Shown one piece after another: positions 3 to 10,223 of a DNA stretch of 10,457 nt (positions within the stretch are counted from its first letter, which is position 1; each line of letters begins with the position of its first letter). The notes below the pieces were generated by a model, which was not told where the DNA came from, made no database searches, and saw only the letters and a program-made list of their open reading frames with translations. Made by a program: the position numbers and the translations under genes. Source of the DNA: Oscillospiraceae bacterium (GTDB lineage: Bacteria > Bacillota > Clostridia > Oscillospirales > Ruminococcaceae); contig JAITVU010000158.1 in NCBI GenBank assembly GCA_031285645.1, positions 1-10,457 of the forward strand, written 5' to 3'.

Positions 3-788
3 GAGACGACGCGCGGCGTGGAATGCGGTGAGGTTGTAATCGCGAACCGCGATATCGGTGAGGATGAGTTCACGCAGCCGCTGAAAAAAGTATTGCGTCC
101 GGCTACGGAAGAGGACATGGAGCAGATCAGGCAAAATAAGGAGAAGGAAGAAAACGCCCTTAAGGTCTGTGCCGAGAAGATACGCAAGCACAACCTCGAT
201 ATGAAACTGATCGGCGCTGAATACACCTTTGACAACAACAAGATTTTGTTTTATTTCACAGCCGACGGCCGCGTGGACTTCAGGGATTTGGTTAAGGATC
301 TGGCATCGGTTTTGCGCACACGCATTGAGCTGCGGCAAATCGGGGTGCGCGACGAGGCAAAAATGCTCGGCGGTCTGGGCATATGCGGCAGGCCGTTTTG
401 CTGTTCAACTTTTTTGGGTGATTTTCAGCCTGTCTCGATTAAAATGGCCAAGGAACAGGGCCTTTCACTGAATCCGACGAAAATATCGGGAACGTGCGGG
501 CGCTTGATGTGCTGTCTTAAATATGAGCAAAACGCCTACGAGGACTTGATCCGCACAACGCCAAAGCAGGGCAGCACGGTGCAGACGCCGGACGGGAAAG
601 GCGTCGTCACGGAGGTCAGCCTGATGACAGGCATGCTCAAGGTATCGATTGATTCGCCAAACGGCCCGACTGTAGTCAGCGTTCACAAAAGCAATGCGAA
701 GCCCGTGCGCGGTGAGGGCCGGCAAAGAGGCGGTGTTAAAAAGGCGGAAACACCCCAGGATACCGATGAACCAATGGTTGAATTATAA
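3..788 (+). CDS. ricT: RicT/YaaT (PSP1 domain) protein, 5' end cut off by window
   Basis: The protein is the C-terminal bulk of a RicT (YaaT) family protein. In Bacillus, RicT works with RicA (YmcA) and RicF (YlbF) in an iron-sulfur-containing complex that assists RNase Y-dependent mRNA maturation and influences sporulation, competence and biofilm formation. The diagnostic signs are the PSP1 core with the cysteine-rich segments GICGRPFCC and TCGRLMCC, about 30 residues apart, which supply the conserved Cys set for cluster binding. The reading frame is open to the left edge: codons from base 3 read E-T-T-R-G-V-E-C-G-E-V-V, which matches the conserved early part of the family, so the GTG at base 18 is an internal valine and not the start. 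Roughly 20 to 30 N-terminal residues are missing. The tail after about residue 225 is charged and variable. A hairpin terminator follows about 95 bases after the stop. Family assignment is firm; function is by homology. Confidence 0.95.
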   Translation, partial: ETTRGVECGEVVIANRDIGEDEFTQPLKKVLRPATEEDMEQIRQNKEKEENALKVCAEKIRKHNLDMKLIGAEYTFDNNKILFYFTADGRVDFRDLVKDLASVLRTRIELRQIGVRDEAKMLGGLGICGRPFCCSTFLGDFQPVSIKMAKEQGLSLNPTKISGTCGRLMCCLKYEQNAYEDLIRTTPKQGSTVQTPDGKGVVTEVSLMTGMLKVSIDSPNGPTVVSVHKSNAKPVRGEGRQRGGVKKAETPQDTDEPMVEL

Positions 789-1384: not shown

Positions 1385-2488
1385 TTACTCTGTTGACGAT
1401 ATAATCCTGTTTTTCCAGAGAATCCATAAAATGGGGTCAATGACCCTGTGCGGCACAATGTGGTTGATCGCGTTCGCGTCATTGGGCGCCGATCCCAGCG
1501 AACTGAGCCCGAAGAAGCCGTAGTCGGCAAATTGGGACGTGACCTGATTGACAATTTCAACCTCGCCCCAGCTCTCAAGCAGGCTTTGAACCTCAAGGCT
1601 TGAGCTGGTAAAGTCGTGGATATCAAAACGACCCGTATTGACATGCCGCGATGGATAAAGGAGAAAGCTGGAAGGGTCCAGAAGCGGTCGGATCGTATCC
1701 ATTTTTGTCAGGCAGACCGCGATGGGAATATCGATTTTCCGCCTGATGTTTTTGCGGTTGCCGCCTTGCCGGATCAGGTGGATGGTGCGCGAAAGCAGCG
1801 TGCTGGCGTCGTCATTGCTCACCGGCCGGCCCGTTGTTTTCAGGCTCTCCCGCACGCTCGGTATCTGAAAGGGATCAATAAAATACAGTATGCCCCGGGC
1901 ATTGTAAATGCTGCGGTTGTAGTCCGCCATGACCTTTTCACTGCGGAAATTGGCGCCGCAGGCATCGTAAAGCGTGAGGTTACAGCTTTTGCCCAATGGC
2001 GGCTGGCCGGAGAAAACAAGGGAATACAGCAGCGGCGTCACCTCGTCCTGCATGGTTGAGGTGATGCATTGGCCGCGCACAAAAAGAGGCTGGTAATAGC
2101 GGCTGTCGTAATTATGTATGGTTTCGTCCCCGCCAAGCGGGTAAAGCGCACAGTTGTAAACCTTCGAGATCCGGCGGCGCAGCTGGTCGATCAAAACGGA
2201 AAGATAGTTGCTTTTGCCGCAGCCCTCGGCCCCGACAATGGAGACAGGCAAAGTGGGCACACTGTCGTCGTCAATAATAACAGGGTAGCCGCAGGAAGGG
2301 CAGAGACGCTCGATCAGGGCGCTTTTACACGCGGGGCAGAGAGGATTGCCGTTCTCCTCGTGGATGTCCGCCGCCGGTATCGGCAGTCCCGATCGCTCGC
2401 AGTTGCCATGGGTACAGGTGTAGGAAAACGCCTCCGTCGCGTGGCGTTGGAAGCAGTTTGGACATACAATTGTCTGTTTTGCCGGCAT
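1385..2488 (-). CDS. Zinc-ribbon P-loop GTPase of TRAFAC type
   Basis: This 367-residue protein joins an N-terminal metal-binding region to a GTPase domain. Cysteine pairs CPNC (9-12), C25/C30, CPAC (51-54) and CPSC (63-66) suggest two zinc ribbons or rubredoxin-like knuckles in the first 70 residues. The GTPase domain shows the P-loop GAEGCGKS (86-93), a Walker B/G3 motif LYDACG with DxxG at 175-178, and the guanine-specifying TKMD (261-264); SSL near 329-331 may be the G5 loop. No membrane segment is visible. ATG 2488 is preceded by AAAGGAG with a short spacer. The gene lies 233 bases after the J-like/zinc-ribbon gene and is the last of the leftward series. The CxxC pairs in both neighbours suggest shared architecture. 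It resembles the double-GTPase (DO-GTPase) families described in predicted conflict systems, but that placement is inferred from layout only. GTP binding is well supported; the role is unknown. Confidence 0.85.
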   Translation of the reverse strand: MPAKQTIVCPNCFQRHATEAFSYTCTHGNCERSGLPIPAADIHEENGNPLCPACKSALIERLCPSCGYPVIIDDDSVPTLPVSIVGAEGCGKSNYLSVLIDQLRRRISKVYNCALYPLGGDETIHNYDSRYYQPLFVRGQCITSTMQDEVTPLLYSLVFSGQPPLGKSCNLTLYDACGANFRSEKVMADYNRSIYNARGILYFIDPFQIPSVRESLKTTGRPVSNDDASTLLSRTIHLIRQGGNRKNIRRKIDIPIAVCLTKMDTIRPLLDPSSFLLYPSRHVNTGRFDIHDFTSSSLEVQSLLESWGEVEIVNQVTSQFADYGFFGLSSLGSAPNDANAINHIVPHRVIDPILWILWKNRIISSTE

Positions 2489-2525
2489 GGGATTCTCCTT
2501 TCAGGAATGCGTCGCGCCTGATTTT

Positions 2526-2679
2526 ATAGTGAACGACCTTCAAAACCGGAACGGTTTTGAAGCGTCAGGCATACGCCTGACGGTACGCTGCAGGCGTGCG
2601 CGTTCACTATGTACGGTGCGAAGGCCGCTTCGCGGGCCCACATTCGCGCGTGTGCGCGAATGCTTCAAAAGTGTGGCCC
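2526..2679. repeat. Cloverleaf-like palindromic intergenic element
   Basis: A perfect 10-base outer inverted repeat, ATAGTGAACG (2526-2535) and CGTTCACTAT (2601-2610), encloses three hairpins: 2538-2562 (11 pairs, loop GAA), 2563-2582 (CGTCAGGC, loop ATAC, 8 pairs) and 2583-2599 (GTACGC with GCGTGC, one wobble). Two more structures follow at once: 2618-2633 (GCGAAG, loop GCCG) and a composite stem 2634-2679 (GGGC and CACA paired with TGTG and GCCC) whose inside carries the perfect 8-pair stem ATTCGCGC (2642-2661, loop GTGT). It fills nearly all of the gap between the two leftward genes. It lacks tRNA hallmarks. Repeat element or structured spacer are both possible. Confidence 0.6.
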
Positions 2680-2704
2680 GTTTCTGAAGTTCGCTGAGTA
2701 TAAG

Positions 2705-2717
2705 ACGGCTTTGCCGT
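2705..2717 (-). terminator. Weak hairpin just after the 989-residue gene
   Basis: ACGGC, loop of three, GCCGT lies five bases past the stop codon of the large gene; on the - strand it is followed by CTTAT. The stem is only five pairs and the T tract is poor, so at best it is a leaky terminator or an RNA 3'-end stabiliser, which would still allow read-through into the GTPase gene. Confidence 0.25.
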
Positions 2718-2721
2718 AATA

Positions 2722-5691
2722 TTATGTGATTTTCAAGCTCGCGACTGGCAGCAGCCTGAATTTATCATAGAACATTTCGTCGCGTAAAAAGAGCTTGACA
2801 TGCAGATTTTTGGGCAGAAGGCTGGTGCGGTACTCGTATGTAATTGACCCGGCCACCTTTGTCTCCTTCTCAATTTCAAAAAGCGGCATACCGTCGGTTT
2901 TTTTAAGCGGCAGGCGCCCGATTTTGCCGACGATAACGGCGCGGGGCAACACAAACTCACTGTCCGAGCTGATGGTGAGGGATACGGAATAAGCCGAGGC
3001 GAAAAAAGATTTCGTGTATTTAAGCTGATAAAAAATTTCCTGCTGAGGCGTCAGGTCTATGCGCAGCTCAACACCGGGCGAATAGTTGCGGTCGCCGTCC
3101 GGCGCTGTAAAGACTGAAAATATCTTGAAATAATACAGGCTCTTCTCGGGGTCCTTGAGCAGCGCGCCGGCGTCATATTCGTATTGTTCGCGCGTACAGG
3201 TCATGGATATGGTGCCCGGCTCGCCCGGTGTTTTGGGGTATGCGTCAAAGCGCCACATGATCAGGATTTCCTGGGTGCCCTGCGGCCACTTCATGTTAAA
3301 AAACAAATCGCTGTTCACCATATCCCAGGTGAGTTGTTCCACGTCGAGCACATTTGTCAGGTAACGCGGCGTGCCGACCGTCGCGTATTTGCCGGAAACA
3401 GCCGCGGCAAATATGTAGAGACCGCCGCTGAACTCGCAGCGCAGGCGCGCGCTTTCCGGCGTTTTCGCGTCGAGGTCGAGGTTGCGGTACTGCTCGATGA
3501 GTTCGGAGACGGGCAGCGTCTCCCCGACACGGAAGTCGGGCTTTTTGACGGACGCCAGCACGAGGACGTCCTTGTACTGCGAGTTGTGCCAGTTCACAAC
3601 ATACTCGCCGTCCGCGCCGTCGACACGCATGATGTCGATGTGATCGATCGGCGCGAGCAGGCGGTGCGGAATGACGCTGTCGCACACGCCCTTGGAAAAC
3701 ACCCTGACGCCGTCCAGCACATATACGGAGACGATGTAGTACCAATACTCAACATCATTTTTAAGCTTGTGATCCGAAAGGCCATCCAGGCGCGGGTTTT
3801 CAAGGAGCATGCCGTCCCCGCGGCGAAGCGGCCTGTCCCCGCCCAGCTTGCGCCAGACAAGCACTTCGCGCAGGTCGGGGTTGAAGCTCCACGATATGCG
3901 CGCCCCGGAATCCGTGGGGACAATGCGCAGATTTTCCACTTCCGGTATGATCAGGATCGGCTCGGACAGGGCCGAACTCTCCGAATAGGCGTTGCCGCGG
4001 CGCACATAGACGCTGTAGTAAAAGCGCTTGAGCGGCGCGGGATTCAGATCCTCAAAGGAGTTGGCCCGGCCCTCATAGAGAATGTCGCCGTCATAGGCGG
4101 TGAGCGGGGCGCTCTCAAGCTTGCGCACCAATACATAGCTGATGACGCCCTTTGCCGGGCTTTTATCCCAATCGACGCGCACTTTTTTATCCAGAAGCGT
4201 CACTTTCATGCCGGACACGGGTTCGGGCGGATGCATGGCAAGCAGGCGCCCGAGCTCAATGCTGTCGGCTACAGTGTTCACCATGGCGTACAGGACGTCA
4301 AAATCAGGCGCTGTTCCAATCGCCGTTATTTCTTCTAGCCGCTTTTCAAAATCAGCGATGACTTTGCTGACATGGGACGTCGTTGACGCGGGCAATCGGA
4401 TACGCCGGGCCTCGGCCTCCTCGATGAGCTCGACAGCCGCGTAATACTGATTGTGCTTGACGCAGTCCCCGATGTTGTCGACATAGGTGGCGTAGCGGTC
4501 TTCAAGGCGCTTGGCGCGGCGCTCAAGGGAGTCCAGGCGCGGGTGGCCGGGCCAGAACTTGCCCGCATAGGCGATGCAGCGCTGGGCCGAACTCCAGTTG
4601 CTCTCAATCAGGGCGTTTTCGGCGTCGCTGATATATTGCTGGGCCTTGATCATTTCCGCGATGGAGAAACCGCATTTGGAGCAGACTGAGGGGCCGCCCT
4701 CAAAAGGCGTGGCGCAGTTGGGGCAGAGGCCGCGCAGCGGCGCGGCGCAGACCGCGCACAATTCGCCCTCGCGGTCCGTCTTGTTGTGGCAGGCCGGACA
4801 GTCGACAAATTTGGACTGCGAATCGATGGGAATATTGTAGGCCTGGCAATAACGCCGGATGTACTCCTCGGCCTCGAGAACCTTGCAGCCATATTTTTCC
4901 ACGGCAAAGTTAATGATGCGCAGCAAAACATCGGTATTGATGTATTTGGAGCGGTTAAACTCATCGTCCACCAGCTCACCGACGGCCGGGTAGCTGCTGA
5001 TTTTAAGGTAACGGTCATATTTCTGTTTCGTGTCAAAGCTGGAGAAAAGCTGCAGGCAGATACCGGAAAGCTCCTGGACCGCCGTGACCTGGGCGTTTTT
5101 AGCGCCGCTGGAGGAGGCCTCCCGCCTTTTAGCCTCGGCCGCGTCTTTAAGCTTTTTAATCGATGAGTACGGCGGCAAGTCAAGGAACGCGTAGAGGTCG
5201 CTGATGCCGAGCAGGGTCAGGTTGCGCTGGACATTGCGGGCGACAAGCCTGTCGAGCGTTTCGCCGACGTCATCGTCACCGCTCTCCCGCGGCGGATTTT
5301 CTGAAACCGGCTTCCTGGTCAGGTTTTCAAGGGCCGTTTTGCCGATTCCATAGTGGGAATATTTGGCCGTTATGGCGGCCGCTTCCCTGGGCGTGATGTG
5401 GCCCTTGCTCTCCAATATGCGCAGTTCCGCCTCAAACTGGCGCAGCATTTCACCCCGCAGCTCCTGCGCGGCGGCGGCCTCGCCGGCGCGCAAGGCGGGA
5501 TCAAGCATGATGCGCTCGATTTCGGGGATGAGGCTTAAATTGTATAAAGCGATGCTGCGCTTGCCGGGCGTATCCTGCATGCGCACCCATTCCTGTCTTT
5601 TTTTGTGGATCGCGGCCTTGATCGCGGTGGCGTCGGTTACCGGCGGATCAAAAGCCAGTTCCAAAAGGACATAGCAGTTTTCCCTCTCCAT
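2722..5691 (-). CDS. Large J-like / zinc-ribbon / fibronectin-III-like protein
   Basis: The 989-residue product has no signal peptide or membrane segment and is probably cytoplasmic. Residues 5-80 (CYVLLELAFDPP..., helices, LDPALRAGEA) and 162-230 (GISDLYAFLDLPPYSS..., ending FDTKQKYDRYL) both resemble J-domain folds, but neither contains the HPD tripeptide used to stimulate Hsp70. Four CxxC pairs follow, CPAC (298), CAVC (312), CPNC (323) and CSKC (337), likely two zinc ribbons. Residues 345-460 are helical, TPR-like. From about 490 to 880 come three or four beta-sandwich repeats of fibronectin-III type (for example VRVDWDKSP, ARISWSFNP, YVVNWHNSQ), then a beta-rich C-terminal domain. ATG 5691 has GAGG nine bases upstream. 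The neighbourhood (Hsp70, GrpE-like, zinc-ribbon GTPase) supports a role as an adaptor that brings clients or partners to the chaperone. Domain calls come from reading the residues; the J-like calls are the least certain. Confidence 0.8.
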   Translation of the reverse strand: MERENCYVLLELAFDPPVTDATAIKAAIHKKRQEWVRMQDTPGKRSIALYNLSLIPEIERIMLDPALRAGEAAAAQELRGEMLRQFEAELRILESKGHITPREAAAITAKYSHYGIGKTALENLTRKPVSENPPRESGDDDVGETLDRLVARNVQRNLTLLGISDLYAFLDLPPYSSIKKLKDAAEAKRREASSSGAKNAQVTAVQELSGICLQLFSSFDTKQKYDRYLKISSYPAVGELVDDEFNRSKYINTDVLLRIINFAVEKYGCKVLEAEEYIRRYCQAYNIPIDSQSKFVDCPACHNKTDREGELCAVCAAPLRGLCPNCATPFEGGPSVCSKCGFSIAEMIKAQQYISDAENALIESNWSSAQRCIAYAGKFWPGHPRLDSLERRAKRLEDRYATYVDNIGDCVKHNQYYAAVELIEEAEARRIRLPASTTSHVSKVIADFEKRLEEITAIGTAPDFDVLYAMVNTVADSIELGRLLAMHPPEPVSGMKVTLLDKKVRVDWDKSPAKGVISYVLVRKLESAPLTAYDGDILYEGRANSFEDLNPAPLKRFYYSVYVRRGNAYSESSALSEPILIIPEVENLRIVPTDSGARISWSFNPDLREVLVWRKLGGDRPLRRGDGMLLENPRLDGLSDHKLKNDVEYWYYIVSVYVLDGVRVFSKGVCDSVIPHRLLAPIDHIDIMRVDGADGEYVVNWHNSQYKDVLVLASVKKPDFRVGETLPVSELIEQYRNLDLDAKTPESARLRCEFSGGLYIFAAAVSGKYATVGTPRYLTNVLDVEQLTWDMVNSDLFFNMKWPQGTQEILIMWRFDAYPKTPGEPGTISMTCTREQYEYDAGALLKDPEKSLYYFKIFSVFTAPDGDRNYSPGVELRIDLTPQQEIFYQLKYTKSFFASAYSVSLTISSDSEFVLPRAVIVGKIGRLPLKKTDGMPLFEIEKETKVAGSITYEYRTSLLPKNLHVKLFLRDEMFYDKFRLLPVASLKIT

Positions 5692-5872
5692 AAATACAGA
5701 CCTCGCTAAAAGAATTGCCGGACAAGAACCTGAGCGGACAGGTTTTCAGCCGCCTATGTAATGCTAAAGCACGAGTCAAATACGAAACCTCTGTTAAGGC
5801 CTGTTGACATAAAGCTGACAGCGCGCCTTTTCTGCGCTTTTGCACGGCACTTCGCTTATACCCTGAAGGCAA

Positions 5873-5900
5873 AAAAATATGAAGCCCGGCTTAAGCGGGC
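5873..5900 (-). terminator. Terminator-like hairpin inside the leader of the 989-residue gene
   Basis: GCCCG and CGGGC (5884-5900) enclose GCTTAAG on the + strand. On the - strand the stem is followed by TTCATATTTTTTT. It lies downstream of the candidate promoter at 5986-6015 and upstream of the start at 5691, so it could end transcripts from the DUF3788 side or act as an attenuator. The stem is only five strong pairs and the T tract starts five bases after it. Confidence 0.35.
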
Positions 5901-5985
5901 ATTTTGTTCGCCGTCTATAAAAAGTGCGTCAGAGCTTTTATATACACAGGCGTATGCGAACGGCTGCGCCTGCTTATGCGTCTAT

Positions 5986-6015
5986 ATTATACATAATAGC
6001 AGTGTAAAAATACAA
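5986..6015 (-). promoter_or_regulatory. Candidate sigma-A-type promoter for the 989-residue gene
   Basis: Read leftward, TTGTAT (6015-6010; four of six consensus bases) is followed after 18 bases by a perfect TATAAT (5991-5986). It lies in an AT-rich patch between the DUF3788 gene and the large gene, about 295 bases before the latter's start. This would let the J-like and GTPase genes be transcribed separately from the Hsp70 part. Prediction only. Confidence 0.4.
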
Positions 6016-6076
6016 GCTTTTTACTGCGGTAATGCCAATATTTGTTGTTTCAGCGGCCTGATTTGCGTAAAACACG

Positions 6077-6106
6077 CCCGCAGGCGGCAGCCCGCAGCGG
6101 GTTTTT
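6077..6106. terminator. GC-rich stem downstream of the DUF3788 gene
   Basis: CCCGC (6077-6081) pairs with GCGGG (6097-6101), with an inner GGC/GCC stem, and TTTTT follows on the + strand. On the - strand, which is the direction of the adjacent gene, the tail is CGTGTTTT, so it could also serve that gene, whose stop lies about 20 bases to the right. Orientation and strength are unclear. Confidence 0.3.
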
Positions 6107-6123
6107 AACAGAAACTTAGTATA

Positions 6124-6576
6124 TCAGGCGTTCTTTGGCGGCTTCTTAAACTTAAGAAGTTCGATGATATCGGCGATTTCATTGTCGTTTTCGACACGGT
6201 AATGAACCCACCCGCCGCCGTTCTTGCCGCAGGGATAGCGGTTTTTCCAGTATTCCTGTGTCCGTGGCAGCATGGTGGGGAGGATCGCCTCGAGCTTGTC
6301 GACGGCCGCGCCGCTCAGCTGCGTCGTGACCGTGATCGTGCCCGCCTCAAAAAAGGCGTAACAGAGATGGGCGGATTTGCTGCTGAACTTATAACCCCAT
6401 CCGTATTTGCGGCCGAAAGGACAGCGCAGCTCCTTGCCGGTTATGTATAAGGCGCCGATCAATGATTCGAGACGGTCGAGGCGGCGTATGCCGTCCGGAC
6501 CGATAAAGGCGCCGATTTCTTTCGGCGCGGGTTCACGGTTGGGATCGGACAGGCGTTTCCATTCGGGTGCAGCCAT
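6124..6576 (-). CDS. DUF3788 family protein
   Basis: A 150-residue soluble protein of the DUF3788 family, whose biochemical role is not established. The recognisable signs are the KYGWGYKF segment (57-64) followed by a hydrophobic strand beginning LCYAFFEAG, the strand TITVTTQLSG, and the C-terminal GGGWVHYRV (120-128) before the helix that ends the family domain. Length is normal for such proteins. ATG 6576 has AAGGAAAGG upstream at a suitable distance. It lies 50 bases after the acetyltransferase gene on the same strand, so the two are probably co-transcribed. Proteins of this family are common single-domain accessory proteins in Firmicutes and Bacteroidetes; nothing seen here ties it functionally to the chaperone genes. 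Confidence 0.8.
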   Translation of the reverse strand: MAAPEWKRLSDPNREPAPKEIGAFIGPDGIRRLDRLESLIGALYITGKELRCPFGRKYGWGYKFSSKSAHLCYAFFEAGTITVTTQLSGAAVDKLEAILPTMLPRTQEYWKNRYPCGKNGGGWVHYRVENDNEIADIIELLKFKKPPKNA

Positions 6577-6626
6577 AGTGATGCCCTTTCCTTTACTGTC
6601 TTTACAGATTTGATTCGGCCCGTGGC

Positions 6627-7160
6627 TTAATCGGTCAGCACGCGGTGCATGGTGCGCTTTGTGTCGGCGAAGCCGTGCCGGGCGTAAAGACGGGCGGCTT
6701 GCCTGTTTTCCTCAAGGACTGTAAGCTCGACATAGTCGAGTCCGCGGGCCCGCGCCCAATCCTCCACAGCGGCGATCAAAAGGCTGCCGCTCCCCTCGCG
6801 GCGGCGTTCGTCGGCGACGCAGATATCCATCAGGTACGCAAAGCGGCGGGGGCGAATACAGGCATAAGGCGGCGTCTGTTCAGCCCGGACGAGAGCAAAC
6901 CCCGCAATATCGCCGCTGTCCGCCGCCACAAGAATATCAGCGTCACTGTTTAGGATTATTGTCCTGAGGAAATCCGCGTTTTGATCGGCCTCGCGCCAAT
7001 ACCGGGGCTGGAGAGCGGCCATCTCCTTAAACAGCAGCTTGTAAATGGGCATTATCCGGGCAATATCGTTTTCTGCGGCCACTCTTATAAAAGTATACGA
7101 TACTCCTCTTCCAAAGTTAAAAAACCATGGATTCGTCGAGGCGGCGGCGCGCCTCCACAA
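6627..7160 (-). CDS. GNAT-family N-acetyltransferase
   Basis: The protein has the GCN5-related acetyltransferase fold: an IRVAAENDIARI first strand and helix, the acetyl-CoA-binding motif RREGSG (120-125, fitting RxxGxG) in a DICVADERRREGSGSLLI context, and the C-terminal ELTVLEENRQAARLYARHGF segment typical of the family. The substrate cannot be told. The start is ambiguous. TTG 7160 overlaps the Hsp70 3' end by 44 bases and adds about 22 residues without family resemblance. GTG 7082 would remove the first beta strand. The good ribosome site GGAAGAGGAG (7103-7112), right after the Hsp70 stop, has no in-frame ATG, GTG or TTG at normal spacing. The wide call is kept so that strand one is included. 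Position suggests translational coupling to the Hsp70 gene. Confidence 0.85.
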   Translation of the reverse strand: MWRRAAASTNPWFFNFGRGVSYTFIRVAAENDIARIMPIYKLLFKEMAALQPRYWREADQNADFLRTIILNSDADILVAADSGDIAGFALVRAEQTPPYACIRPRRFAYLMDICVADERRREGSGSLLIAAVEDWARARGLDYVELTVLEENRQAARLYARHGFADTKRTMHRVLTD

Positions 7161-8805
7161 AGTCCGCCTGTGAAATGGCGTCCACAGTCTCGAAGCGCGC
7201 GCTCACTTCGCGGTTCTGGGCCAGTTCGGCGGCGCGAAGCTCGAGCAGGCCGGACTCGTTGAGCTTGAACTCTATTTCAAGCGGGGACCCTTTAGGCAGG
7301 CCTTCAGGCAAATCGAGCACGGCTTCGCCGATCTCGGTGCCCTCTTCCGGCGCGGCGTGGCGCTCGCCGGACAGCGATTCCAAAACGCGGATTGTCACCT
7401 GTTTCTGCGCCTCCACGACTGTGTAAAACTGCCGCACCTCCGACGCTGGAAGCTCGGTATTTTTGATAATCATATTGTACAGGACTTCGGTTTTTTCCTC
7501 CGCTTTGGCGTCCTCGAACGCGATGGTGCCGAAGCTGCGGCTTGTAACGTTGACAATGTCGATATCGGCCGACGCGGCTTCAACACGCGCTTCGTCGATG
7601 TCGAGTTCCTCGGCGAGCGTCTGAATGTCCGTGTCGCCGCGCGCGATCTCATCGCGGATGGCTTCCTGCGTTTTACCGCTCTCAGCGGCGCTCTTCTCGA
7701 TGATTTCGCCGAAGAAGTTCTGGCGCTCGGCAAACAGCGCCGCGCCCTTGGCGACGGCCTCGTCGGGATCGTAGATTTTGACCGGGGCTGAAAGCGCCTG
7801 CGACACGCGCTCCGATATCTGCGGCATGCGCGTGGAGCCGCCCACAAGCAGCACCTCCGCGATGCGATTTTTCGCGTAGCCTTTTTTCAGCGCCTCCTCG
7901 AGCATCTCCTGGGTGAGGAGGATGGTGCGCTCCAGCAGATCGGCCGTTAAGGTATTGAACTGGTCGCGCGTCAGCTCCACGCGGGCGCGCTCGCCCTTAA
8001 AGTTGATCGATATGGGGGCCTTTTCGCGGGCCGTGAGCATTTTTTTGGCCCGCTCGGCGGAAATGGAAAGCTCCTGCAGGGTTTCGGGATCGGAGAGGAT
8101 ATCCTCAGAGCTGCCCGTCTGGCGCGCAAACTCCTCCGCGACGTACTCAATCACGCGGTCGTCCCACAGCTTGCCGCCCAGCGCGTGGTCGCCGCCGGTG
8201 CAGATGACTTTTATGGCGTCGGGCTGAATGTCGATCATGGTAACGTCAAAAGTGCCGCCGCCAAGGTCATACACCATCACAACCTTGTTCTCGCTCATGC
8301 CCTCCACGCCGTATGTGATAGCGGCGGCGGTGGGCTCGTTGATGATGTTGAGGACATTGAGGCCGGCGATTTCCCCCGCGCGCTTGGTTGATTCGCGCTC
8401 GCCGATGCCGAAGTAGGCGGGGCATGTGATCACGACGTCGGTGATGGTTTCGTCGGGAGCGAGCTTGTTTTCGGCGCGCAGCGCCGAAACGGCGTCCGCC
8501 ACTATTTTTTTGAGGATATAGGAAGACACTTCCTCAGGCGTGCGGTTTGCGCCGTGAATATGCCACGAAATACCTGGCTGGCCGATGCTGCGCTTAACAA
8601 AGCTGACAACCTCGTCGGGGTATATTTTCGAGCTTTCCTTGGCGGGAGTCCCGACGACAACATTGCCCGGGGATTCAAAAAAAACGACGGACGGCGTGGT
8701 CAATTCACCCTCGGAATTCTTAAGGACGATTGGCTTGCCCGATTCATCCACATAAGAGACGCAGGAATACGTCGTGCCCAGGTCAATGCCCAAAACTTTG
8801 TTCAT
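7117..8805 (-). CDS. DnaK-type Hsp70 chaperone without C-terminal lid
   Basis: An Hsp70 of 562 residues. The ATPase domain (about 1-362) is intact: phosphate-1 loop GIDLGTTYS (6-14), FVKRSIG with the catalytic Lys71, NEPTAAAI (156-163), phosphate-2 VYDLGGGTFD (178-187) and the adenosine motif LLVGGSTRMP (319-328), so ATP hydrolysis is expected. An additional acidic, helical segment (about 363-412) precedes a diverged interdomain linker, DIDIVNVTSRSFG. The beta substrate-binding domain is recognisable at about 426-540 (IIKNTELP, VTIRVLESLSGE). After that only some 20 residues remain, so the helical lid of DnaK, usually another 90 or so residues, is missing, as is any EEVD-like tail. ATG 8805 has GGGAG ten bases upstream. 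A GrpE-like gene lies directly upstream and a J-like gene farther down, pointing to a dedicated, specialised chaperone rather than housekeeping DnaK; an HscC-like role is another possibility. Confidence 0.95.
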   Translation of the reverse strand: MNKVLGIDLGTTYSCVSYVDESGKPIVLKNSEGELTTPSVVFFESPGNVVVGTPAKESSKIYPDEVVSFVKRSIGQPGISWHIHGANRTPEEVSSYILKKIVADAVSALRAENKLAPDETITDVVITCPAYFGIGERESTKRAGEIAGLNVLNIINEPTAAAITYGVEGMSENKVVMVYDLGGGTFDVTMIDIQPDAIKVICTGGDHALGGKLWDDRVIEYVAEEFARQTGSSEDILSDPETLQELSISAERAKKMLTAREKAPISINFKGERARVELTRDQFNTLTADLLERTILLTQEMLEEALKKGYAKNRIAEVLLVGGSTRMPQISERVSQALSAPVKIYDPDEAVAKGAALFAERQNFFGEIIEKSAAESGKTQEAIRDEIARGDTDIQTLAEELDIDEARVEAASADIDIVNVTSRSFGTIAFEDAKAEEKTEVLYNMIIKNTELPASEVRQFYTVVEAQKQVTIRVLESLSGERHAAPEEGTEIGEAVLDLPEGLPKGSPLEIEFKLNESGLLELRAAELAQNREVSARFETVDAISQADFVEARRRLDESMVF

Positions 8806-8843
8806 GTCAGGAAGACTCCCTTCTATTCCCTCGAAATATCGTG

Positions 8844-8869
8844 CGGAATTCTACAGAATTCCGTTTTTT
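8844..8869. promoter_or_regulatory. 20-base palindrome in the Hsp70 leader
   Basis: CGGAATTC (8844-8851) and GAATTCCG (8856-8863) form a perfect inverted repeat around TACA, centred about 50 bases before the Hsp70 start. TTTTTT follows on the + strand, so read rightward it looks like a terminator, but no rightward gene is present. In the Hsp70 direction it could be an operator or a 5'-UTR hairpin. It is not a CIRCE element (TTAGCACTC/GAGTGCTAA). Confidence 0.4.
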
Positions 8870-8921
8870 AGTAGTATCGCTATATTGTATTTTATTAAGA
8901 GACGGGCGGCTTAAAGTTCTC

Positions 8922-9027
8922 ATACTAATCCGCTTTTAAAACCAGCTACTCAACTATTGCTCAAAACGCTTTCTTCTCAAAGAAAGCAATCGCTCTGTTT
9001 CGCAGGATTTTAAATGCGGATTAGTAT
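8922..9027. repeat. Small inverted-repeat element, copy 2
   Basis: The left arm ATACTAATCCGC plus TTTTAAAA (8922-8941) and the right arm (9008-9027) match as inverted repeats in 19 of 20 positions. The interior carries a perfect 8-pair hairpin GCTTTCTT, loop CTCA, AAGAAAGC (8968-8987), and the ACTCAAC motif shared with copy 1. The 106-base length, terminal inverted repeats and absence of an ORF fit a MITE-like or REP-like non-autonomous element. A target-site duplication is not obvious. Confidence 0.7.
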
Positions 9028-9038
9028 CATATATAAAG

Positions 9039-9078
9039 CCCGGCTTTTCGAGCCTGTATTAAAAGTGAAAAAGCCGGG
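9039..9078 (-). terminator. Terminator-like stem after the GrpE-like gene
   Basis: CCCGGCTTTT (9039-9048) pairs perfectly over ten bases with AAAAGCCGGG (9069-9078), with a 20-base loop. In the leftward direction it lies 60 bases past the GrpE-like stop and is followed by CTTTATATATG, a modest T-rich tail. If it works, the Hsp70 gene needs its own promoter or read-through. Confidence 0.5.
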
Positions 9079-9137
9079 ATATTATGGACTTTCCGCTGAT
9101 TGATTCCCGCCGCCACAATGCTGACTGACCGGCGGTG

Positions 9138-10223
9138 CTAACGCCCGCCGGATTCGCCGGCAATATATACGGATACCCGCTCAGGCCGAATAACTTTGCC
9201 GTTTTTTGTCCAACCGGGGGCCATGCGCGCCGCGATTTTTTTATCGAGCGCGGTATTGGATGTTGGCACGGTCGACACTGTGTTCTGCCGGGTGGGATCG
9301 GCGTCCTCGCCCGCCACGGTAAAGGGGTCGACGCCCTGGCGGTAAAGAATATCGCGCAAATCGGTTTCAACGCCCGCCAGCATTTTGTAAAGCCTGGCGT
9401 AGTCCGCCTCGCTGCAGGGCTTGTCCCTGAACGAATCCAGCGTTTTGGCGAGGGAATCAATGAGCTGGATAACGTCCAGCTCCATGTGGCGCGTGAGCGA
9501 ATCAAGCAGATCGTTTTTATAATCCTGCACCTCTTTGTGCAGATGGTCAAACAGCATGTCCTTATGGCTGTCCACTGCGATTTTTTCCTGAAACTGGCGC
9601 ACGAGCTGCTGCAGATTTTCAAGGATGAGCAGCTGGTGCTCGTAAACGCGCGTATCCTCCTCCGGCGTGTCCTGGGTGAGGGCCGGGGGGCCGTTTTCGG
9701 GTAAAGGCAGGCGCAGCCAGTGGAAAAAAGCGGGGGACAGCGCGTGGTAGAACGGGTATAACCCCTTCGGACAGAGCTGCATGAACAAATCCTTGTAGCG
9801 CACAACGACGGCAACCTGGTCACGATTCAGGTTTTCCTCAAACGCGAACTGGCGCAGGTTGTCGTATGCGGCAATCAGGTCTTTTTGCAGCGCCTTGATC
9901 TTTCGGTTATCCATGCTGCGGGGCAGCGCCATGGACACGGCTGTGTCCAGCGGATACTGCACGGGATTTATAAAATCGGCCGCCGCGCACTCGCTTAAAA
10001 GGCACAGGTTTCCTGTGTCCATGGAGAAGAGGGCCCAGGCATGGGGCCGCGCGGCCGTGTCTCTTCCATCCTGATGGTAATAAGCGAAAACACCGTCGTA
10101 AAAGCGATCCTCACGCCGAACGCCGACAGGATATGAAAAGACAGCCTCGGCGGTGAAAAGATAATCCAGCTTCTTTCTGCTCCTGATGGCATCATATGTT
10201 TTGGAAAAAACGGGCAAATCCAA
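9138..10223 (-). CDS. GrpE-like nucleotide-exchange protein with extra N-terminal domain
   Basis: A 361-residue protein whose second half resembles GrpE, the dimeric exchange factor that removes ADP from Hsp70. Residues 193-265 form a long amphipathic helix suited to a coiled coil (EHQLLILENLQQLVRQFQEK and onward). Residues about 278-355 fit the four-helix and beta-wing part: LYKMLAGVETDLRDILYRQG, then VDPFTVAGEDADPTRQNTV, then GWTKNGKVIRPERVSVYI, matching the GrpE layout of Gly-x-x-x-Asp/Pro, a hydrophobic wing and a V-x-RPA-like end. Residues 1-180 are not GrpE: a mixed alpha/beta region (LDYLFTAEAVFSYPVGV, AWALFSMDTGNLCLL) of unknown fold. GrpE is usually near 190 residues. The TTG start is chosen because AAGGAG lies nine bases before it and no better start is in frame nearby. 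Its position upstream of the Hsp70 on the same strand supports the pairing. The GrpE match is by motif reading, not alignment. Confidence 0.8.
   Translation of the reverse strand: MDLPVFSKTYDAIRSRKKLDYLFTAEAVFSYPVGVRREDRFYDGVFAYYHQDGRDTAARPHAWALFSMDTGNLCLLSECAAADFINPVQYPLDTAVSMALPRSMDNRKIKALQKDLIAAYDNLRQFAFEENLNRDQVAVVVRYKDLFMQLCPKGLYPFYHALSPAFFHWLRLPLPENGPPALTQDTPEEDTRVYEHQLLILENLQQLVRQFQEKIAVDSHKDMLFDHLHKEVQDYKNDLLDSLTRHMELDVIQLIDSLAKTLDSFRDKPCSEADYARLYKMLAGVETDLRDILYRQGVDPFTVAGEDADPTRQNTVSTVPTSNTALDKKIAARMAPGWTKNGKVIRPERVSVYIAGESGGR

Follow-up and report, generated by a model that had tools for sequence, protein, structure and literature searches.

Bacterial systems that pair a GAP1-N2 protein with DO-GTPases have been described in several themes, and in the second of these, according to the sections of the description that deal with it, the partners are HSP70 and GrpE together with an FNIII protein that usually carries a DnaJ or TPR fusion (Kaur, Burroughs, Iyer, Aravind 2020; PMC7159879). 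The same sections predict that GAP1-N2 DO-GTPase systems act in conflicts and presume FNIII to be the sensor (PMC7159879). A DO-GTPase beside psp genes has moreover been predicted to serve in membrane stress, in the relevant part of a 2024 paper (PMC11237479). No experimental study of the HSP70 theme was found in the literature, and the theme is known by prediction. Here we analyse four genes, for a GrpE-like protein, an Hsp70, a large scaffold protein (P989) and a GTPase, on a stretch of 10,457 nucleotides (the window; contig JAITVU010000158.1 of assembly GCA_031285645.1, our C37). The window makes up a single contig in a draft genome of 2.24 Mb (70.6% complete) from an uncultured Oscillospiraceae genus.

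We read this locus as a GAP1-less derivative of an HSP70-theme system, fixed in the genus and vertically inherited, which may have been domesticated into a scaffold with an ATP and a GTP switch that works without classical J-domain triggering; taken as a whole, this reading has in our estimate an even chance of being right. The sequences themselves show which components are present and how they are related, which residues have changed, and that searches of the genus turned up neither GAP1 nor a second GTPase. An earlier reading of the letters of the window alone (the sequence-only reading) had proposed a dedicated system, possibly a regulated conflict-type one, of a composition not yet described. 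The dedicated system held and the conflict type named the right parentage, that of the GAP1-N2 DO-GTPase systems, whereas the composition already stood in print as the HSP70 theme, in the sections cited (PMC7159879). That reading had missed two things: the usual GAP1 partner and second GTPase are not found in the genus, and the contact residues of Hsp70 and the J-like partner are changed.

Conservation and kinship of the four genes

The conservation search covered 100 genomes, the window's own and 99 relatives; the genus set consists of 11 of them, some being drafts at 70-81% completeness. P989 was matched in 20 genomes, with 13 long matches (the 11 genus genomes and, in our numbering, G040 and G045) and 7 short ones, mainly to zinc-ribbon stretches. 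The GTPase was matched in 14, namely the same 13 and, by a weak partial match, G049. Both proteins are present in every one of the 13 genomes that has a long match to either, so that the conserved co-occurrence expected by the sequence-only reading was indeed seen. The genes thus hold up as real, and the genus conserves them, the P989-GTPase pair in 11/11 genomes and the GrpE-Hsp70 pair in 9/11. GrpE matches came from 15 genomes, strong in nine of the genus, clear in G045 and weak in five, including G009, where the match adjoins the housekeeping DnaK; a dedicated Hsp70 was likewise among the matches in nine genus genomes, with none in G002 and G009.

P989 and the GTPase gene are adjacent across the whole genus (in G003 via contig pieces), and all four genes lie on a single contig in five of the 11 genomes (the window, G001, G004, G008 and G010); in G007 a contig break falls within the Hsp70. 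Matches to P989 are full or near-full in all 10 genus relatives, that of G003 being in two contig pieces. In G009 (L034) P989 and the GTPase are intact and no dedicated Hsp70 or GrpE was found, and its sister G010 has all four. The gene trees of the genus show the same main clades as DnaK, by look and with no formal congruence test; the order differs inside G000/G002/G004, and G001 and G008 are placed differently. Distance correlations with DnaK are 0.66-0.84, and the look of the trees suggests vertical inheritance.

Outside the genus, G668 carries a row consisting of a DO-GTPase of transmembrane (TM) type, GrpE, Hsp70, a vWA-Hsp70, a J-like/FnIII-type protein, a zinc-ribbon DO-GTPase and a GAP1-N2/M protein. 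Like sets with GAP1 occur in G040, G045 (with the P989 homologue elsewhere), G960, G1007 and G1026, and homologues of all four window proteins share one neighbourhood with GAP1 in G1026, G1007 and G668. The draft of G1026 (L217) has its P989 and GTPase homologues each split in two overlapping frames. In the Hsp70 tree, the deep part of which is weakened by long branches, the dedicated Hsp70s and those of GAP1/DO-GTPase loci form one group (99/94) apart from 13 housekeeping DnaKs, in which the genus adjoins G1026, a carrier of GAP1 (93/97). A housekeeping dnaK operon was rejected because of this separation, and the tree gives the window's Hsp70 no equally close relatives in ordinary dnaK operons; such relatives would, by the terms of the sequence-only reading, have spoken against it.

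The window thus shares with the theme, as far as the published sections describe it, a zinc-ribbon DO-GTPase, HSP70, GrpE and an FNIII protein (PMC7159879). Pfam and the grouping of the Hsp70s bear out the HSP70 and GrpE genes; FnIII was recognised in P989 by structure and DnaJ was not detected; as for TPR, helices are predicted at residues 345-486. The window differs in that no GAP1, no TM-bearing second GTPase and no vWA-Hsp70 were seen, and its genus in that the glutamate after the DxxG motif of the GTPase is mostly lost, the N-terminal domain of the GrpE-like protein is genus-specific and the system is present in every genus genome examined. From these comparisons, kinship with the HSP70-theme systems appears highly probable. 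In CoCoNuT systems, too, a GTPase and an Hsp70-like protein are neighbours, in a setting predicted to serve defence; by their description, in the parts of PMC11090510 that give it, the GTPase is McrB-like and the Hsp70-like parts have degenerate motifs.

The Hsp70, its exchange factor and the scaffold

Residues were compared in 15 dedicated Hsp70s and 13 housekeeping proteins, the latter being 12 DnaKs of these genomes and that of E. coli. The ATPase residues D8, K70, E171, T199 and D201 are kept in all 15 and, like the conserved C-terminal part of GrpE, are shared with the DnaK-DnaJ-GrpE machine. In contrast, the Arg167 present in 13/13 housekeeping DnaKs is found in none of the dedicated proteins (N 8, G 3, A 2, S 1, K 1), Glu217 in 1/15 against 13/13 and Asp393 in 2/15 against 13/13. 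The stretch aligned to DnaK 376-388 measures 47-60 residues, compared with 13-14 in the housekeeping DnaKs, and 59 in the window where DnaK has 13. After the position of DnaK 507, 2-20 residues follow in 14 complete dedicated Hsp70s and 125-141 in 12 DnaKs, one genus Hsp70 and one DnaK being cut by contig ends. The window therefore lacks the hallmarks of a housekeeping DnaK, with Asn at 167, IDIVN in place of the VLLLD linker and only 18 residues after position 507 in place of the alpha-helical lid; its long insert before the linker, a partner without HPD and a separate tree group complete the difference.

These positions matter at the contact with J-domains, where, according to the passages of PMC13012618 on this contact, Asp35 of HPD touches Arg167 and K26 touches E217, and where HPD alone does not suffice to explain all J action. 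The partner segments lack HPD as well (0/16 J-like partner proteins). Both changes are common to the GAP1-bearing systems and therefore belong, judging from the alignments, to the HSP70 theme and not to its reduced form. The terms 'HPD' and 'R167' are absent from Kaur et al. 2020 (PMC7159879), and the combination of an Hsp70 without Arg167 and lid and with a long insert, together with an HPD-less partner, was not found in print.

In P989, helical J-like segments (residues ~1-95 and 148-232) are followed by zinc ribbons (298-342), a predicted helical part (345-486) and an FnIII array (~487-989). The label 'J-like' given by the sequence-only reading found no support in profile tests, the DnaJ profile not being listed for the window at E<=10, and the fold search was filled by FnIII matches and thus did not reach the helical head. 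The J-like segments are nevertheless the best-conserved parts of P989 (identity 0.59 and 0.64), which argues from sequence that they matter despite having no HPD. The zinc-ribbon cysteines are invariant in 12 aligned rows. When a P989 profile was run across the order, 106/345 genomes were matched, and all matches listed except the window's own were partial, mostly zinc-ribbon or FnIII stretches.

J-like proteins without HPD exist, Pam16 being one in which the J-like helix order is kept. The window differs from this type in that the Hsp70 too lacks Arg167 and the J-like head, its J-domain homology unproven, sits on an FnIII scaffold.

The GrpE part of the exchange factor keeps the beta-wing motif in 4 aligned genus sequences. 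Its N-terminal domain was seen only in the window's genus, with no phmmer match in 5 GrpE-type proteins of GAP1-bearing systems, and its mean identity over 9 genomes is 0.34 versus 0.53 for the GrpE part; this feature, too, did not turn up in print. A model of the whole protein, built from 4 rows (predicted local distance difference test, pLDDT, 56), gave no PDB match in Foldseek at E<=0.001.

Intact ATPase residues, a substrate-binding beta domain, an own GrpE and fixation in the genus would all suit a chaperone dedicated to one abundant client (an envelope, spore or surface protein, for example) that FnIII holds and Hsp70 works on, akin to the specialised chaperone of the sequence-only reading. 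The missing lid, the changed Arg167 and linker and the lack of HPD fit a client-folding cycle poorly, however, and no conserved client gene adjoins the loci by inspection, so that we regard such a chaperone as unlikely.

Further Hsp70s were observed in the GAP1-bearing genomes. A second one of 694-749 aa (L152:1475-3594, L180:3443-5533, L218:9593-11677, L251:8673-10922) has a C-terminal vWA domain by Pfam in the two scanned and is also without Arg167 (S, T, K, Q). In G960 (L251:11345-12472) a 375-aa Hsp70 adjoins the dedicated one; it has Tyr at DnaK position 11 and Ser at 199, stops after the nucleotide-binding domain and fits the 'HSP70 sans peptide-binding domain' mentioned in Kaur et al. 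(PMC7159879, in the part on these systems).

The GTPase and GAP1 in the genus

The two CxxC pairs of the GTPase suggest zinc ribbons, and by its sequence the protein is a DO-GTPase with probable N-terminal zinc ribbons, because it is nested among GAP1-linked DO-GTPases, scores 26.2 bits, just below the Pfam cut-off, and carries these pairs. In the GTPase tree the genus forms a clade (100/99) next to the GAP1-bearing G1026 and G1007 (98/89), inside a set otherwise all GAP1-linked except for the orphan G900. The latter (L250:10902-12080) is a solitary DO-GTPase of the same subfamily, and the 20 kb of sequence examined there hold no GAP1, P989 or Hsp70.

The P-loop and TKxD are kept in 11/11 genus GTPases. 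The residue after DxxG, the position of the catalytic Gln in Ras-type enzymes, is Lys in five, Ala in three, Glu in two and Gly in one of them. Taken as the conserved glutamate of the Walker B region, it is Ala in the window and Glu in 19/19 GAP1-linked GTPases (18 different, two being identical; two fragments without the G3 region were dropped). The tubulin-theme GTPase of G122, which is not counted among the 19, also has Glu. Constraint on this residue is thus relaxed in the genus, as far as the alignment tells, and its loss there was not found in print.

GAP1-M (PF20014) was matched in 0/11 genus genomes and in one of the 61 of that search (G082). A four-row GAP1 profile (A4) at E<=1 likewise gave 0/11, finding G040, G045 and G668 and missing G082; as a control of sensitivity it recovers the GAP1s of G960, G1026 and G1007 (308, 133 and 85 bits), none of which was used in building it. 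A second DO-GTPase was found in none of the 11 genomes, the profile giving one match each there and two in G040, G045 and G668. Since the genus GTPases are nested among GAP1-linked ones, GAP1 was quite probably lost in the genus line. Outside it, GAP1 was found in 11/398 phylum genomes, and the PF20013 count of 19/391 is a lower bound that missed the G960 GAP1, which resembles that of G040.

Among these 19 are several orphans, GAP1-N2-like genes that have no DO-GTPase in their vicinity. In genomes of a family of the same class (f170; L220-L225, L228-L232), GAP1-N2-like genes of ~720 aa occur in a repeated setting, with a gene start resembling CTP synthase (by eye) and ABC-type genes, and no DO-GTPase matched nearby; here GAP1 possibly stands without its GTPase, the reverse of what the window shows.

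The missing GAP1 and second GTPase, the often missing Glu and the lack of a detectable GrpE-Hsp70 pair in G009 and G002 could also mark a decaying remnant of a GAP1 system, retained by chance. Full-length open frames in 10/11 P989 genes, that of G003 being split by contig ends, and motifs kept across species at ~50% identity make this very improbable.

The features of the window are collected in Table 1. Its minus strand carries GrpE-like, Hsp70, GNAT, DUF3788, P989 and GTPase genes, of which the GNAT and DUF3788 genes are probably local insertions outside the conserved set: neither had a tblastn match better than E 0.66 at the loci of 9/10 genus relatives and G040. A GNAT gene lies between Hsp70 and the P989 homologue in G040 and has no tblastn match to the window's GNAT. 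A PSP1/RicT-type gene (window 3-788, plus strand) adjoins the locus and MetG (L036:2871-6199, minus strand) that of G008, and the two may mark a common chromosomal place, given a gene order that we assume. Several sample codes of the genus presumably denote termite or cockroach gut.

Table 1. Coordinates of the features in the window
Feature	Position	Strand	Support
DO-GTPase2-like GTPase, 367 aa, two N-terminal CxxC pairs	1385..2488	-	Pfam DO-GTPase2 (PF19993) 26.2 bits, cut-off 27
GTPase G3 motif DACGA, Ala179 where the GAP1-linked DO-GTPases examined have Glu	1952..1966	-	
P989 scaffold, 989 aa	2722..5691	-	model pLDDT 77, FnIII fold match
DUF3788 gene	6124..6576	-	Pfam 2.9e-20
GNAT acetyltransferase gene	6627..7160	-	Pfam 3.6e-18
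Dedicated Hsp70, 562 aa, substrate-binding beta domain present, without lid	7117..8805	-	Pfam HSP70 1e-102
End of nucleotide-binding domain, inserted stretch, altered interdomain linker (IDIVN for VLLLD)	7549..7746	-	alignment
Segment aligned to DnaK 167-176; DnaK Arg167 replaced by Asn153	8320..8349	-	alignment to E. coli DnaK
GrpE-like nucleotide exchange factor, 361 aa	9138..10223	-	Pfam GrpE 8.8e-13, residues 201-352
N-terminal domain of GrpE-like protein, ~residues 1-185, no assigned function	9669..10223	-	

Possible function of the reduced system

In the mechanism that we propose, P989 would serve as a scaffold in the cytosol, binding a ligand or client through its FnIII array and holding the lidless Hsp70, with no HPD-Arg167 trigger, through its J-like helical head. 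The Hsp70 would act as an ATP-driven clamp or conformational switch and not as a general folding chaperone, paced by the ligand and its own GrpE, and the zinc-ribbon GTPase would read or cap the assembly as a second switch. Because the Glu after DxxG is gone in 9/11 species, the GTPase may hydrolyse GTP slowly or via another residue and be chiefly a GTP-binding sensor. From sequence features we hold this two-switch mechanism only tentatively. The likeliest job would be to sense and deal with an internal stress that recurs, for instance damage to the envelope or to proteins, and not that of a toxin-releasing antiviral device.

The system might nevertheless still serve in conflicts, antiviral or abortive, with the FnIII repeats sensing an invader and the effectors being encoded elsewhere or being the assemblies themselves. 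Its parentage lies in systems predicted for conflicts with FNIII as presumed sensor, as the cited sections put it (PMC7159879), and the GAP1-bearing relatives are rare and scattered. Against this stand the presence of P989 and the GTPase in 11/11 genus genomes, FnIII segments that change no faster than their neighbours within the genus (identity 0.43-0.52 vs 0.46-0.64) and flanks in which inspection of translated open reading frame starts, a partial look with no systematic annotation, showed no shared effector gene. The PADLOC 2023 models gave the four proteins only 3 weak listings (E 0.033-0.59), and we consider a system still engaged in conflicts rather improbable. A known anti-phage defence family was rejected, there being no PADLOC match below E 0.033. 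Phage or plasmid cargo was rejected as well: among 21 pattern matches in viral contigs no relative was confirmed, and the plasmid search, which covered the window GTPase and the G668 scaffold but not P989, Hsp70 or GrpE, gave no match; phage records were not among the sets searched.

Several observations weigh against the domesticated, GAP1-less derivative that we favour. The GrpE-Hsp70 pair was not found in G009 (94% complete) or in G002 (75%, with contig ends near) and may therefore be dispensable, and in G003, G005 and G006 it lies on a different contig from the P989-GTPase pair. In the sequences, loss of GAP1 does not strictly go together with loss of Glu, since the DO-GTPase of G900, without linked GAP1, keeps Glu, as do those of G004 and G009. 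The GAP1 negatives rest on 11 genomes, including the 70-81% complete drafts, and the A4 profile misses the tubulin-theme GAP1s and that of G082, so that a very divergent genus GAP1 could escape. The J-like fold fails profile tests, with only 3 J-domain sequences used in the hhalign of the segments; residue 167 of the Hsp70 is Lys in G1007; and the Arg167/HPD change, being shared with GAP1-bearing systems, leaves the reduction unexplained.

In its fullest form, the derivation that we favour would make a predicted conflict machine the core signalling device of one genus, with the Hsp70, run without the HPD-Arg167 trigger, serving on its FnIII scaffold as the ATP switch and coupled to a GTPase without GAP1, without its paralogue and mostly without Glu; we regard this as possible, though doubtful. 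The genus has the smallest HSP70-theme version seen here, with four soluble-looking proteins, and the paired changes on both sides of the Hsp70/J-domain contact allow a direct test of an Hsp70 run without the HPD-Arg167 switch. If domestication is the true reading, the genus would offer a natural example of an Hsp70 system uncoupled from J-domains, and one of a conflict system that has taken up housekeeping duties.

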